This document shows, in pieces, positions 11,222 to 18,472 of a stretch of DNA of 47,766 bases. Below the pieces are notes generated by a model. It was not told the origin of the DNA and did not search any database. It saw nothing but the letters and a program-made list of their open reading frames with translations. The number at the start of each line of letters is the position of its first letter. Within the stretch, counting starts at the first letter, position 1. A program made the translations under genes and the position numbers. The stretch lies in assembly GCF_902833145.1 (NCBI RefSeq), contig NZ_CADFEN010000023.1:1-47766 (forward strand), written 5' to 3'. The stretch comes from Burkholderia sp. BCC0506 (lineage in GTDB: Bacteria; Pseudomonadota; Gammaproteobacteria; Burkholderiales; Burkholderiaceae).

Positions 11222-12925
<1,704 letters not shown>

Positions 12926-13243
12926 TCAGGCCGCTTTCCTGGCGGGCTGCGATTCGGGTTCGAGTACGCCCATGACGTCCTCTTCGCGCATGACGAGCAG
13001 CTCCTCGCCGTTCACCTTCACGGTCTGGCCTGCATATTTGCCGAAGAGAACCTGGTCGCCGACCTGGAGCTGCAGCGGGCGCTGCGAGCCGTCCTGCAGC
13101 AGCCGGCCGCTGCCGACTGCAATCACTTCACCCTGCTCGGGCCGTTCGGCGGCCGAATCGGGAATCACGATGCCGGAGGCCGTCGTCCGTTGCTGTTCGA
13201 TTCGCTTGACGATAACCCGGTCGTAGAGGGGACGAATCTGCAT
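12926..13243 (-). CDS. groES: Co-chaperonin GroES
   Basis: A 105-residue lid protein of the chaperonin. It begins [17 protein letters not shown], has the mobile-loop region [18 protein letters not shown], and ends with the usual EEDVMGVLE block plus a short basic tail. AGGAG is placed six bases before the ATG at 13243; a second ATG two codons upstream abuts the ribosome-binding site and is less likely. It is the first gene of a groES-groEL operon. Confidence 0.95.
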
Positions 13244-13686
13244 TTTCATCTCCTGAGCGATGAGATCACCTGGAAAAGGGAATCCGTCGGCGCATGTCCG
13301 CGCAAGGGCTGCGCTGCACCGGCGTGCCGTCGATTGGCGAAAAGCGAAATAGTGGCGCAGGGAGCGCGCTTCAAGAGGGGGATAAAAGCACATATGTAAC
13401 AAAATGTTTCACGCCGGGCACCGCGTTCTGCCGGTCGGCGAACGTCTCGCGATGCCCGGTCAAGAGCGGCAACACGGCCTCGACGGTCGCCGCTCCGGGC
13501 CGCGAGAATCGTTGTGCAACGGGCGCTTGAAATCCGCGCGGCCCATCCTATTTTGGTAACGCTCGAGCAGCTGCGGCTAACGCGCTGCGTGTTTCGATTT
13601 GTTTGTCAGCGAGACCTTCGCGGATCGACGAACTGGAGCGCGTAGTCCGGTTCGTCCTCCGTGCGAGGTTCAACCGGGAGCGAATC
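13244..13686. other. Divergent intergenic region
   Basis: No gene is seen. It carries the groES heat-shock-like promoter at 13347-13375 and must hold the promoter for the genes starting at 13687. Nothing else stands out. Confidence 0.55.
13347..13375 (-). promoter_or_regulatory. Candidate heat-shock (sigma-32) promoter of groES
   Basis: On the minus strand, CTTGAA (13375-13370) is a perfect sigma-32 -35 element. After 14 bases comes CCACTATTT (13355-13347), similar to the CCCCATNT -10 element. It lies about 100 bases before groES. Confidence 0.55.
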
Positions 13687-14454: not shown

Positions 14455-15297
14455 TCAGGCCTTGCGCGCGACGACACCCACCGGCGAAGCGTGCGCGCGT
14501 TTCGGTGCGGTCTTGTAGTGCGTGCTGTACAGCGCCGCGCCGACGAACACCAGCCCGCCGACCAAGTTGCCGAGTACCGTCGGGATCTCGTTCCACAGCA
14601 GATAGTCGACGATCGTGAAGTGGGCGCCGAGCATCAGTCCGGACGGGAACAGGAACATGTTCACGACCGAGTGCTCGAAGCCCATGTAGAAGAACACGAG
14701 GATCGGCATCCACATCGCGATCACCTTGCCGGGTACGGACGTCGACATCATCGCGGCGACCACGCCGGTCGACACCATCCAGTTGCACATCACGCCGCGC
14801 ACGAACAGCGTGAGCATGCCGGCGGCGCCGTGCGCCGCATAACCGAGCGTGCGTGCTTCGCCGATGCCGCCGATCTTCTGTCCGATCGCGTTCGGCGCTT
14901 CCGAAAAGCCGAATGTGAAGATGATCGCCATGAACAGCGCGACCGTCAGCGCGCCCGCGAAATTGCCGAAGAACACCAACGTCCAGTTGCGGAACACGCC
15001 CCCCCAGGTCGCGCCGGGCCGGCGATCGATCACCGCGAGCGGCGCGAGCGTGAAGACGCCGGTGAGCAGGTCGAAGCCGAGCAGGTACAGCATGCAGAAT
15101 CCCACCGGAAACAGCAGCGAACCGGCCAGTGCGTTGCCGGTGTTGATGGTGATGCTGACCGCGAAGGCGGCTGCGAGCGCGAGGATCGCGCCCGCCATGT
15201 ACGCGCGAATCAGCGTATCGCGGGTCGACATCGACAGCTTCGATTCACCGGCGTCGACCATCCTGGTGACGAATTCGTTGGGCATGAGGTAGGCCAT
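14455..15297 (-). CDS. Formate/nitrite transporter (FNT) family channel
   Basis: A 280-residue inner-membrane channel with six membrane segments, homologous to FocA and NirC, which conduct formate or nitrite. Family hallmarks include FPVGFCMLYLLGFDLLTG, the GVFRNWTLVFFGNFAGAL block and the central-pore His in MGFEHSVVNMFLFPSG. No formate or nitrite enzyme is adjacent, but the upstream regulator senses nitrate/nitrite and the leader looks antitermination-controlled, so nitrite (or nitrate-linked) transport is the better guess. The start at ATG 15297 is chosen over an in-frame TTG five codons upstream. Transcription probably begins near 15444. Confidence 0.9.
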   Translation of the reverse strand: MAYLMPNEFVTRMVDAGESKLSMSTRDTLIRAYMAGAILALAAAFAVSITINTGNALAGSLLFPVGFCMLYLLGFDLLTGVFTLAPLAVIDRRPGATWGGVFRNWTLVFFGNFAGALTVALFMAIIFTFGFSEAPNAIGQKIGGIGEARTLGYAAHGAAGMLTLFVRGVMCNWMVSTGVVAAMMSTSVPGKVIAMWMPILVFFYMGFEHSVVNMFLFPSGLMLGAHFTIVDYLLWNEIPTVLGNLVGGLVFVGAALYSTHYKTAPKRAHASPVGVVARKA

Positions 15298-15324
15298 GGT
15301 GTGCGCTCGCAAAGTTGGACGTGC

Positions 15325-15371
15325 AAAAAAAACGCGCCAGGCACTCGCTCGACATGCGAGTGCCTGGCGCG
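15325..15371 (-). terminator. Intrinsic terminator in the FNT leader
   Basis: A perfect 16-base-pair stem (arms 15333-15348 and 15356-15371) with a 7-base loop is followed on the minus strand by eight T residues (15332-15325). It ends 27 bases before the FNT start, so without antitermination it should block FNT expression. Confidence 0.9.
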
Positions 15372-15444
15372 GACGCTGTTATCCACGTGATCGGCCGCCA
15401 CGGTTCGACATGGCGTGATCGTCAGGCCGCCATTAGCCCGACGA
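15368..15444 (-). ncRNA. Candidate ANTAR antiterminator leader (two hairpins)
   Basis: Hairpin 1 (15444-15419) has ten pairs (two G-U) and the hexaloop AATGGC, with the conserved A1 and G4 of ANTAR targets. Hairpin 2 (15387-15368) has seven pairs and the loop AACAGC, and its 3' arm shares bases 15371-15368 with the terminator stem, so the two exclude each other. Both loops fit the pattern T-AA-Y-R-GC-G including the closing U-G pair. The linker is 31 bases and contains a possible middle hairpin. This matches the established two-hairpin mechanism of NasR and EutV. That the adjacent NIT-ANTAR protein binds here is inferred. Confidence 0.75.
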
Positions 15445-15454
15445 GCGAGATGTT

Positions 15455-15471
15455 TGCAACTTTCATACCAG
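15455..15471 (-). promoter_or_regulatory. Sigma-54 promoter of the FNT gene
   Basis: CTGGTATGAAAGTTGCA on the minus strand has GG-N10-GC and matches the consensus YTGGCACGRNNNTTGCW at all specified bases except two C-to-T changes. The predicted transcription start is near 15444, exactly where the first leader hairpin begins. Confidence 0.75.
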
Positions 15472-15546
15472 TGACGGGAATATCGCGATGCAGGCTGGCC
15501 GGACGCGAAATGCCGGGAGAGAAAGCCGCAACCGATCGCAGCGAAT

Positions 15547-15579
15547 CGCACTCGCGCGGTGCAAACTGCACTTCGTGCA
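15547..15579 (-). promoter_or_regulatory. Candidate NtrC upstream activator sites
   Basis: On the minus strand, 15563-15547 reads TGCACC-GCGCG-AGTGCG, 10 of 12 positions of the NtrC-type TGCACC-N5-GGTGCA. A 13-base palindrome TGCACGAAGTGCA lies just upstream at 15579-15567. Both sit about 100-135 bases before the predicted start, the usual position for sigma-54 enhancer sites. Confidence 0.5.
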
Positions 15580-15625
15580 TGCGCTTCGGGCGCCGCCGCG
15601 GTGCGTGAAGCGCGGTGCGTTCGGG

Positions 15626-16981
15626 TCAGGTCGTGCCGTCGTCGTGCGGTGTCTCCGGCGCGCTTCGCTGCATACGGCGTCGCGCGGAAGGTTGCGCGTG
15701 CTCGTCGACGAATCGCTCGGGCGACGTCAGCGCGTCTTCCGCGATATCGGCAAGCGGCCGATTGCCGTCCATCGACGCTTTCTGCAGCATCCGATACGCT
15801 TCGTCCTCCCGCAGGCTGAAGCGCGTCATCAGCGTCTTTTTCGCGCGCTGCACGAGCTTTCGTTCATAGAGCGCGCGACGTGCCGCGTCGAGCTCGACCT
15901 CCGCGCCGGCCAGGCGCGCCGATTGCGACTCCAGCAGGGATTTCAGGCTGGCGAGCGTCCCCAGGTCGGAGCCGGAGAGGCGTCCCGGCAGTTCGTGAAC
16001 CGCCGTGCGCGCCGACAACGGATCGCCGGCGAAGAACTGGGCGAGGGCCTGGATATGCGGGGGCGGATTGTTCCGCAACTGCGCCATCAGGCGCTCGGAG
16101 TCGCGCAGCGTTCGATGCGCGTCGTCGATTCGCGCGTCGCACGTCTCCTGCACCTGCAGCGTCAGCGCGATCTGAAGGTGCCAGAGATCGTCGATGCGGG
16201 CGCTCGCGGCGTCGAACCATGCTTCGCTCAGGCCGGCATCGAGCGCATCGCCGGCGTGCGCCGTGCACAGTACGCGGCGCAGCTTCTCGAGCGCCGCCAT
16301 GTGCGGCTCCGTCATGCGGGTTTCCCACCATGCGTTTTGCGCCGTGCTCGCGAAGCTCGCGAAGACTTCGAGATTGCGCTCCTGCGCGGCTATCAGATAC
16401 AGCAGGCGCTGCTGCTGGTCCGCCGAAAACGTGCCCGCCGCGAACATGTGCGCGCCGACGGCGCGTTCCTGTCCCGCTTCCTCCTTGCCCTCGACGACAT
16501 GGACGAGCGCAATCAGCATGCGCGACACCGACGGATCCGCCCCGCTGTCGGCAACCTGGAAAATCAGTTCCACCAGGCCGCCGATCACGGTACTGAACGC
16601 CTGGACGGAATCGGGCGCCGACAGCGCAAGATGGTCGATCTGTTCGCGCAGCACGTCCAGCGATTCCAGGTCGAGCAGCACCCAGGCGATCAGCGACAGC
16701 AGGCGCGACGTCGAGCCGCGCGCGGGCGTCAGTTCCAGATCCAGGCGCTCGCGCAACTGCGCGACGAGCGGCACCGATTCGGCGCGCGAAGCCGCGCGTT
16801 CGGCGACAAAGCGCTTGCCGCTCGACGCCAGATAGATGCTGCTGGCGCCGCGCTCGCGCTGCAGCGCATGGATCAGGCGGCCGAGCAGGTCAACCAATTC
16901 GATCTGCTCGGCCAGGTGGCGCAGGGACGCGATTTCCTGCTGCTTGGCGAGCAGCGCGAATTGCAGGGCAGTGGCGGGCAT
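15626..16981 (-). CDS. NIT-ANTAR transcription antiterminator (NasR-like)
   Basis: A 451-residue cytoplasmic regulator. Residues about 25-330 form a NIT nitrate/nitrite-sensing helical domain with the signature HALQRERGASSIYLAS. The C-terminal part (about 365-430) is an ANTAR RNA-binding domain preceded by a helical linker, with the typical block DEAYRMLQKASMDGNRPLADIAED. In Klebsiella NasR, nitrate or nitrite binding to NIT frees ANTAR to bind leader hairpins and suppress a terminator. The gene lies directly upstream of the FNT gene on the same strand, separated by a leader with matching RNA features. The start at ATG 16981 fits the family N-terminus; its ribosome-binding site is weak. Confidence 0.9.
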   Translation of the reverse strand: MPATALQFALLAKQQEIASLRHLAEQIELVDLLGRLIHALQRERGASSIYLASSGKRFVAERAASRAESVPLVAQLRERLDLELTPARGSTSRLLSLIAWVLLDLESLDVLREQIDHLALSAPDSVQAFSTVIGGLVELIFQVADSGADPSVSRMLIALVHVVEGKEEAGQERAVGAHMFAAGTFSADQQQRLLYLIAAQERNLEVFASFASTAQNAWWETRMTEPHMAALEKLRRVLCTAHAGDALDAGLSEAWFDAASARIDDLWHLQIALTLQVQETCDARIDDAHRTLRDSERLMAQLRNNPPPHIQALAQFFAGDPLSARTAVHELPGRLSGSDLGTLASLKSLLESQSARLAGAEVELDAARRALYERKLVQRAKKTLMTRFSLREDEAYRMLQKASMDGNRPLADIAEDALTSPERFVDEHAQPSARRRMQRSAPETPHDDGTT

Positions 16982-17374
16982 GGTGGATACTGACCGTCGA
17001 CAGGGACTCGGTGCAGTGTAGTGCGGACAATAATCGTTGTTTTTTACGCCTTGCATGTCAAGATTCGTGACGAAGGCCTGGTCCGCAACAAGGCGATCTA
17101 TCTGGCGCCGTTCAAAAACGAGCTTTACCCGCTCCCCGATCGTCCTGTTCTCTGGCGGGGCAGGCCAGCCGTGATAAGCAGGCTTGTGCGAAACCCGAGT
17201 TCGACCGGGCAATCGGAGCATAGAGATAAGGTTCCCATCTCGTTATCATGCTGTAGGAGTTCACAATCAATGCTAGCCGTGCCCAAAGGAGTGCTAGCAA
17301 TGTTGCACCTGAGACGTTTCTTGTAGCCATTGGGCAAGTGAGTTCTCTTTTATCCTAGAGGCAAGGGGAACTCG
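16982..17374. other. Intergenic region before the IS, AT-richer on the right
   Basis: No gene is convincing. The left part must contain the promoter of the NIT-ANTAR gene. The right part, from about 17220, is lower in GC and has a 7-base inverted repeat TGCTAGC/GCTAGCA (17271-17277 and 17293-17299); it probably includes the left end of the insertion sequence. Confidence 0.45.
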
Positions 17375-17633
17375 ATGAAGAAGCGATTTACCGACGAGCA
17401 GGTCATCCGGATCTTGCGCGAGGCCGAGAGCCGGGATGAGCCGGTGAAGGATCTATGTAAGCGCCACAACATCTCGGAACAGACGTTCTATCGTTGGCGC
17501 AACAAGTTCGGCGGCATGGACGTGGCGGACGCGCGTCGGCTCAAGGAACTGGAATCGGAGAACGATCGGCTCAAGCGCCTGATCGCCGAGCAGATGCTGG
17601 TAATCGACGGCCTGAAGGCGTTCAGCCGAAAAA
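17375..17633 (+). CDS. IS3-family transposase OrfA
   Basis: About 86 residues, beginning [18 protein letters not shown], with a helix-turn-helix ([22 protein letters not shown]) and a Leu-zipper-like helix ([20 protein letters not shown]). OrfA binds the element's ends. Its usual stop after FSRKK is missing because the A-run at 17629-17634 has six A residues where seven would give a stop. Its frame therefore stays open into the orfB region, down to 18472. Confidence 0.8.
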
Positions 17634-18472
17634 ATGACCACCCCGACGGGCCGGCGCGAGGCGCTGGAAGTCCTGACTCGGCGGGGGCTCTCGCAACGCA
17701 AGGCATGTCGCTACTTGGGATTGAGCCGCCGAGTGGCGACCTATACGCTCAAGCAACCGGAGAAGGATCGGCGTCTGGGCGAGAGGCTGATGACGGCCGC
17801 GCAAGAGGTGCCGCGCTTCGGCTATCGCCGGATGTCGGCCTGGCTGGCGTTGAGCGAATCGCGCGTGCGGCGAATGTGGCGGGCCCTGCAGCTCAACATT
17901 CCGCGCCGACGTCCTCGCCGACGTCGTTGCGGCGACGACATACGCCTGCCCGGTGCACACAGCCCAATTCGGTCTGGAGCGATGACTTCGTGCACGATCA
18001 ACTGGTGGATGGCCGGGCGTTGAAGATGCTATGCGTGATCGATGAATACACCCGCGAATGCTTGGCGATCGAGGTTGGCGCCAGCCTGCGGTCGCAGGAC
18101 GTGATCTTGGCGCTATCGCGACTCATACGGCTGTACGGCAAGCCCGCGTTTATTCGGTCGGACAACGGCGCAGAATTTACCGCGGCCAGGGTCATGCGTT
18201 GGCTGCGGGACGCTGCAATCGGTCCGGCCTTCATTGCGCCTGGCAGTCCATGGCAAAACGGATTCGTCGAAAGCTTCAACGGCAAACTGCGAGACGAATT
18301 GCTAAACCGCGAATGGTTCCGCAGCCGCGCCGAGGCCAAGGTGCTGATCGAACGCTGGCGGCAGTTCTATAACGAGCGCCGGCCTCACAGCGCTCATCGC
18401 TACCAACCTCCGGCCACGATCCGTCGAGCGTGGCTGGATTCCGATAATATCGACGCGAGACTCACTGCCTGA
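17634..18472 (+). pseudogene. IS3-family transposase OrfB, frameshifted
   Basis: The DDE integrase subunit. The first part (from ATG 17634, starting [18 protein letters not shown]) is in one frame up to about 17957, and the catalytic part is in another. The join reads ...IRLPGA then [11 protein letters not shown] if one A is restored near 17957. The DDE residues are visible in [13 protein letters not shown] and SFNGKLRDE. One frameshift inactivates orfB unless it is a sequencing error. Confidence 0.8.

Follow-up and report, generated by a model that had tools for sequence, protein, structure and literature searches.

The nas genes of Klebsiella oxytoca are under Ntr nitrogen control and also under nitrate/nitrite-responsive antitermination by NasR (PMC5424462, PMC7496416). 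The leader described below is built like the NasR/nasF system, with its NIT-ANTAR regulator, two hexaloop hairpins and intrinsic terminator (PMC7496416), and is set apart from it, as nasF is described, by its target, which is one FNT gene instead of the nasFEDCBA operon. It also resembles the nalA leader of Pseudomonas nirBD, where σ54/NtrC dependence and ANTAR antitermination are known, but there the sensor is the two-protein system NasS-NasT and the target is nirBD (PMC12830290). In Paracoccus denitrificans an FNT orthologue (76%) likewise belongs to an ANTAR-antiterminated operon, nasABGHC, in which, unlike here, nasH stands fourth and NasT is the regulator; nasH was upregulated 186-fold on nitrate relative to ammonium (PMC5424462). 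A further likeness is with the EutV-controlled eut leaders of Enterococcus faecalis, whose dual hexaloop motif overlaps the terminator, with A1/G4 in both loops and a response-regulator ANTAR protein activated by phosphorylation (PMC3369931).

The stretch that we analysed, 47,766 nucleotides from Burkholderia sp. BCC0506 (the window), is best explained as carrying a putative nasF/nalA-type design on a stand-alone NasH-type channel gene. An earlier note on this DNA had called a single FNT channel as target a new use of the design. This is too strong, since a 2012 study already described ANTAR elements before nitrate/nitrite transporters (PMC3369931) and the Paracoccus operon that contains nasH is controlled by NasT (PMC5424462). 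Ramesh et al. 2012 also reported ANTAR RNAs in Burkholderia (PMC3369931), and the window leader may be among their predictions. In the literature searched (titles and beginnings of abstracts, with few subscription papers) we found no case of an FNT gene served by an ANTAR leader of its own, no U.G closing pairs and no spacer hairpins; as far as these searches go, the stand-alone leader of an FNT gene and its departures in sequence are new.

Anatomy of the leader and its neighbouring genes

The leader lies on the minus strand (15444–15325) and consists of a 10-bp hexaloop hairpin (H1), a 7-bp hexaloop hairpin (H2) and a 16-bp terminator with eight U residues (Table 1). The minus-strand letters are TCGTCGGGCT-AATGGC-GGCCTGACGA for H1 and CGTGGAT-AACAGC-GTCCGCG for H2, the latter with a U.G closing pair, and on this strand the coordinates, pairs, loops, eight T residues and H2 overlap given in the earlier note are all correct. 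H2 and the terminator are mutually exclusive structures, four nucleotides (15371–15368) being common to the terminator base and the 3′ arm of H2. H1, the terminator and one more hairpin all appear in the minimum-energy fold of 15470–15297, and the whole leader folds with a z of −4.4, none of 200 shuffles folding equally well. When the 149-nt leader was dinucleotide-shuffled 3000 times, 24 shuffles gave a hexaloop hairpin of at least 10 bp and 55 gave two or more that reached 7 bp; none had a terminator of 12 bp and six T residues, and hence none had all three features together. Across the whole window Rfam returned no match at the gathering score, and for 15200–15700 only sub-threshold miRNA and hairpin-ribozyme matches.

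Table 1. Features of the leader and its surroundings, in window coordinates except for the fusion genes, which are given in the coordinates of their loci.
Feature	Position	Strand	Description
FNT channel gene	14455–15297	−	280 aa, NasH-type, probable nitrite channel; PF01226, E 6e-63
Intrinsic terminator	15325–15371	−	stem 15371–15333, 16 perfect pairs, 7-nt loop; U8 15332–15325
H2, second ANTAR-type hairpin	15368–15387	−	7 bp, two pairs G.U (one closing), loop AACAGC
Third hexaloop hairpin in H1–H2 linker (spacer)	15396–15415	−	7 bp, loop UCGAAC
H1, first ANTAR-type hairpin	15419–15444	−	10 bp, two pairs G.U, loop AAUGGC, closing pair U.G
σ54 promoter element	15456–15470	−	TGGTATG-N4-TTGC (GG-N10-GC), 9/11 consensus letters
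NtrC-like site	15547–15563	−	TGCACC-N5-AGTGCG, 10/12 consensus letters
NIT-ANTAR regulator gene	15626–16984	−	452 aa if start is 16984; PF08376, E 4e-51; PF03861, E 4e-16
Phosphatase/kinase fusion, L051	7815–9548		
Phosphatase/kinase fusion, L057	7884–9629		
Phosphatase/kinase fusion, L062	7826–9616		
Phosphatase/kinase fusion, L257	6822–8552		

Upstream of H1 lies an element absent from the list in the earlier note, TGGTATGAAAGTTGC (15470–15456), which scores as a σ54 promoter element against the σ54 consensus. Since its GC ends 11 nt before H1, transcription would start at about 15444, close to the 5′ end of H1 and in agreement with the start assumed in that note. In all 33 other leader rows (three of them duplicates) an equally spaced element that matches the consensus in 8 or more of 11 letters precedes H1 by 7–20 nt, and 8 of 59 leaderless FNT loci reach that score anywhere in 260 nt, a longer stretch. 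The candidate NtrC site further upstream, scored against the NtrC consensus, is suggestive only; best scores for such sites in the other leader loci range from 5 to 11 of 12.

The leader is flanked by a NIT-ANTAR gene upstream and an FNT gene downstream, as the earlier note had it and as Pfam matches to PF08376, PF03861 and PF01226 confirm. In the regulator, whose start was picked at the beginning of homology, the NIT domain precedes the ANTAR domain, and the nearest solved relative is the K. oxytoca nitrate regulatory protein NasR (4akk, E 8e-38). Among the NasR RNA-contact residues, with numbering fitted to the 4akk alignment, R340 and K347 are kept, K345 is replaced by R and W362 by Y; NasR with the K345-to-R change behaved like wild type (PMC7496416). 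The FNT protein has the channel LCIA (9v2a, E 9e-33) as its nearest PDB sequence, ahead of FocA and NirC, a 99% identical copy in B. cenocepacia, and 76% identity to an FNT protein encoded on a Paracoccus denitrificans plasmid. That plasmid stretch carries no annotation, and its order (ANTAR/NasT-like, NarK-like (26%) and NirB-like (39%) matches, FNT, an 874-codon frame) fits the published nasTSABGHC, in which nasH is the nitrite transporter gene (PMC5424462), so that the Paracoccus FNT is apparently NasH. The window's FNT product is, judged by homology, most likely a nitrite channel for assimilation. An Azoarcus olearius nirC gene, which may be an orthologue, was upregulated more than 50-fold under nitrogen deficiency (PMC8467165). 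Further out, a groES/groEL-like pair (Cpn10, Cpn60; 11222–13402, minus strand) lies downstream of FNT, and an IS3-like transposase gene (HTH_Tnp_1 and rve; 17375–18472, plus strand) is divergent from the NIT-ANTAR gene, about 390 bp upstream of its start.

Distribution and conservation of the leader

FNT matches occur in 59 of 299 genomes of the family, with at least 83% identity in 17 of the 299 (the window's included) and one further partial match at 72%. A NIT-ANTAR match lies upstream of FNT in 11 of the 17 fetched non-window family loci (in L048 with an internal stop), with none upstream in L038, L040, L043, L045, L047 and L049. Scanning 80 named FNT loci with the leader model R1 (E 1e-5 or better) identified the leader in 21, and 18 of these have NIT-ANTAR directly upstream, the three without being L051, L055 and L070. 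Only one of the 59 leaderless loci has NIT-ANTAR in that position (L079, with a weak R1 match, E 0.012); the remaining 58 of the 80 have neither, though three of these 58 (L060, L062 and L077) have a NIT-ANTAR match elsewhere in the locus. A count made before the model was built gave at least one A1/G4 hexaloop hairpin within 260 nt before FNT in 17 of 19 loci with NIT-ANTAR directly upstream and in 13 of 61 others. The search for two-hairpin motifs before FNT genes of relatives, which the earlier note had proposed as a check, thus finds an element that recurs before FNT orthologues and goes with NIT-ANTAR. By their record titles the leader loci belong to Burkholderiales, Rhodocyclales or unplaced MAGs.

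The window element scores 70.6 bits with R1 and the next of 17 window matches 16.8, the model containing the window's own H1–H2 letters through the identical row L050. Because R1 was built from most of the leaders, its E-values for most of them are not independent; leaders outside the training set were also found (L116, E 7e-8; L257, E 9e-11). A pair test of leader against NIT-ANTAR on the FNT tree gave five well-supported independent pairs (median p 0.125), on average 4.4 agreeing, 0.0 disagreeing and 0.6 not differing. The tree has 97 rows and low resolution, with only 13 of its 94 inner branches starred. Two loci, L044 and L046, keep NIT-ANTAR and have H2 and a terminator-like stretch, with no recognisable H1 in the 260 nt before FNT.

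The earlier note had pointed to loss of hairpin complementarity in orthologous leaders as evidence that would speak against it; H1 pairing is kept, in 96% of cells across 22 leaders. Both-side changes fall in 3 of 7 H1 pairs, a number reached by 135 of 500 shuffles. H1 and H2 together are paired in 97.5% of cells, compared to 95.0% for shuffles and 25–49% for slid structures, and the overall covariation score is 0.259 against 0.203 for shuffles, 0 of 500 reaching it. The H2 core gives no covariation evidence because three of its four pairs never vary; this invariance is partly built in, since the leaders were collected with a pattern in which some of the core was already set. Alignment A2 does not contain L051, L045, L059, L116 and L038, and the near copies L118, L119, L033, L034, L036 and L037 were removed from it afterwards. 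In folded leaders the terminator starts in or beside the 3′ arm of H2, though the sequence of that arm varies between groups; L116 has no clear terminator and L059/L042 a poor U-tract. Of the genomes examined in the same genus, G011 alone combines a full FNT orthologue with the lack of any NIT domain match; a NasT-type ANTAR is retained. Its FNT leader is decayed, with loop 1 changed to AATCGC, a broken U-tract and a terminator region of −23 kcal/mol compared to −36 to −45 in other Burkholderia rows, the U.G pairs being still present.

NIT-ANTAR matches were also found in 123 of 369 gamma-proteobacterial genomes, and of the regions around ten of the best that were fetched, nine were examined. 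L249 and L251 carry a nas-type leader with C-G pairs downstream of NIT-ANTAR, and the nas-type leader descriptor found none downstream of NIT-ANTAR in L247, L248, L250, L252, L253, L254 and L255. L247 has a more distant FNT gene (65%) beside a convergent NIT-ANTAR gene, and in the 300 nt before FNT on the minus strand one can make out by eye a σ54-like element, an AATGGC hairpin closed by U.G, and a terminator. In a Hydrogenophaga MAG (L062) a weak leader match (2590–2648, E 8e-4) stands just after the NIT-ANTAR gene, where the nasF-nasE-nasD-like genes ahead of FNT begin. FNT orthologues of 75–76% identity occur in two records named as actinobacteria (L120, L128), where horizontal transfer or a binning error is possible. 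A PP2C-phosphatase/Ser-Thr-kinase fusion gene, its domains checked in L051, L057 and L062, follows FNT directly in 19 of the 21 loci with the leader and in 49 of the 59 without it; there is none among the window genes scanned downstream of FNT, and in B. pyrrocinia the gene after FNT is on the opposite strand. The annotated order in Ideonella is nirB-nirD-NIT-ANTAR-FNT-kinase, with the leader before FNT (L257, E 9e-11).

Loop letters, closing pairs and linkers

Loop 1 (AAUGGC) has A1 and G4 and fits the ANTAR rule, whereas loop 2 (AACAGC) has A4 and does not. We call the window leader an ANTAR variant, because loop 2 breaks the rule while the leader is homologous to rule-fitting elements. All Burkholderia leader rows have A at position 4 of loop 2; the remaining FNT leader rows compared have G there, with A or G at position 1. 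Known ANTAR loops have A1/G4, and a G-to-A change at position 4 lowered eutP induction (PMC3369931). When RNAs were selected with NasR, those with a terminal C:G pair and A1/G4 were favoured (PMC7496416), in contrast to the U.G pairs and the A4 of loop 2 found here.

We compared closing pairs in FNT leaders with NIT-ANTAR in the locus (n=30): U.G closes both loops in 25, three are mixed (L067, L097, L257) and two have C-G in both (L115, L118). Counted among the 30 are nine closely related Burkholderia rows, L055, whose NIT-ANTAR gene lies 6.6 kb downstream, L048, which was read by eye, and L116, whose H1 has just 3 pairs; L044 and L046, which have H2 alone, and L038, which has lost NIT-ANTAR, are not among them. 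The FNT leaders of NIT-less genomes have C-G in both loops in 3 of 3 cases, as do the other leaders of the family in 25 of 25 readable cases (L209 may be misread) from 32 loci examined; L051/L043, L070/L045 and L059/L042, being the same organisms, were counted once. In that scan of 32 loci L177, L182, L184, L185, L201 and L213 gave no element and L210 gave one on the wrong strand.

The linkers of eut leaders are 5–12 nt long (PMC3369931, PMC8934654), and a 14-nt linker failed there (PMC3369931). Here H1 and H2 are separated by 31 nt, of which 3 + 8 = 11 nt stay unpaired if the spacer hairpin (15415–15396), which was missing from the earlier list of features, folds. Among leaders with linkers of at least 25 nt, 26 of 27 fold better than the shuffle mean (mean z −1.69, several rows being near copies) and 13 of 27 are individually at 5% or below; in the three leaders whose linker is only 7, 9 or 12 nt long, it contains no hairpin. 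The window linker is not significant alone, 12.5% of shuffles folding equally well (row L050, same letters). The unpaired remainder of the 27 long linkers is 5–12 nt in 12, 2–3 nt in 8 and 13–20 nt in 7. These figures suggest that the predicted spacer hairpin may compensate for the long linker.

Readings of the leader and the ANTAR proteins of the genome

With a probability of about 0.8, we read the leader as a nitrate/nitrite-responsive transcription attenuator. The σ54 RNA polymerase would start at about 15444, probably activated by NtrC under nitrogen limitation; when no signal is present the 16-bp terminator would fold and transcription stop near 15325. On nitrate or nitrite, a NIT-ANTAR dimer from the adjacent upstream gene would bind the loops of H1 and H2, which the spacer hairpin may bring close. 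H2 would then retain its 3′ arm, four terminator base pairs by the U-tract would be lost, and the polymerase would continue past the blocked terminator into the FNT gene. Counting against this are A4 in loop 2, a linker beyond 5–12 nt and an H2/terminator overlap of just 4 nt, as well as the loci with NIT-ANTAR and no H1 (L044, L046), the one with no clear terminator (L116) and a second ANTAR protein as possible regulator. The claim that an ANTAR leader controls FNT, with the adjacent NIT-ANTAR as likely regulator, is well supported by comparison, through the recurrence of the element, its association with NIT-ANTAR, the H1 pairing and the decay in G011, and needs correcting in two parts, loop 2 being off the A1/G4 rule and NIT-ANTAR not being the sole candidate regulator.

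A rival reading makes the structure no more than a terminator for the NIT-ANTAR gene, or else the origin of a small RNA some 120 nt long, with FNT expressed otherwise. A strong terminator downstream of NIT-ANTAR is what one would then see, and the terminated transcript could be a stable RNA. We consider this reading very improbable: a σ54 element recurs between the NIT-ANTAR gene and the hairpins, a terminator needs no two hexaloop hairpins with a common loop sequence, and the leader is present in L051, L055 and L070, where NIT-ANTAR is not the gene directly upstream. It would take a good deal to make us believe that the signal is something other than nitrate or nitrite, or that the leader acts on translation; the nitrate response is predicted from domains, but the NIT Pfam score is strong, the best solved match is NasR and the terminator lies ahead of the start codon. 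An ANTAR attenuator governed mainly by NasS-NasT, and not by the neighbouring NIT-ANTAR, is unlikely. In its favour, a second ANTAR gene, apparently of NasT type, is present in the window's genome (G000:C4:225104-225262, 210-aa frame); three genomes with FNT leaders (G220, G251, G165) lack any NIT domain match and encode a single ANTAR protein, of NasT size, and NasT controls the nasH operon in P. denitrificans (PMC5424462). Because that NasT-size ANTAR is their only one, NasT probably serves the FNT leader in these three. Against a main role of NasT in the window stand NIT-ANTAR directly upstream in 18/21 leader loci, the C-G closing pairs in the leaders of the three NIT-less genomes where the window has U.G, and G011, which keeps a NasT-type ANTAR and a C-G-paired second leader, yet has a decayed FNT leader.

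The window's genome also has a second leader at G000:C4:227086-227162 (L179, L189; E 8e-5), with a σ54 element, two hexaloops closed by C-G pairs and a terminator. It lies about 1.8 kb from the NasT-type gene and before a nirB-like gene and an MFS transporter gene, the latter labelled narK-like by us. NIT-ANTAR is the only ANTAR in G190, G089 and G069, the first two of which carry a narK-type leader closed by C-G pairs as well; if NIT-ANTAR serves these leaders, it accepts both closing forms. A rule that NasT needs C-G and NIT-ANTAR tolerates both would fit, as would affinity tuning or plain ancestry. The decay in G011, a single case, is as expected if NasT cannot use a U.G leader. The C-G leaders of the NIT-less genomes are close on the FNT tree (L051=G220, L047=G165, L070=G251) and may represent one event, and when closing pair is tested against NIT-ANTAR in the same way as the leader, just two supported pairs are available and the test has no power.

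We put forward only tentatively, as rather doubtful, that two ANTAR circuits are insulated by the closing pair, NasT reading C-G and the U.G class being read by NIT-ANTAR and not by NasT. On this reading FNT leaders turn C-G where the genome has NasT without NIT-ANTAR, and the U.G class has A4 in loop 2 in Burkholderia. The contrast between the U.G pairs of the FNT leader and the C-G pairs of the leader beside nasT may also be ancestry, few independent changes being resolved. The locus, as a sensor-antiterminator plus one channel gene, offers a compact two-gene module for the ANTAR mechanism. Homologous leaders that differ in closing pairs, loops, spacers and regulators form a natural data set, which lets one test how co-resident ANTAR proteins discriminate between RNA targets and whether the short-linker rule of EutV is relaxed when the spacer folds into a hairpin.

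Two residues were considered as a code for the closing pair. W362 was rejected, the position being Y or F in NIT-ANTARs and NasTs alike. A code via NasR R366 is not claimed, because there are exceptions (L057 and L061, U.G yet R; the gamma-proteobacterial L252, Q) and the pattern follows phylogeny. The R366 position is R in the two C-G NIT-ANTARs and in 13 of 14 NasTs found, and Q in 18 of 20 NIT-ANTARs of the U.G group, which includes two with mixed and two with H2-only leaders.
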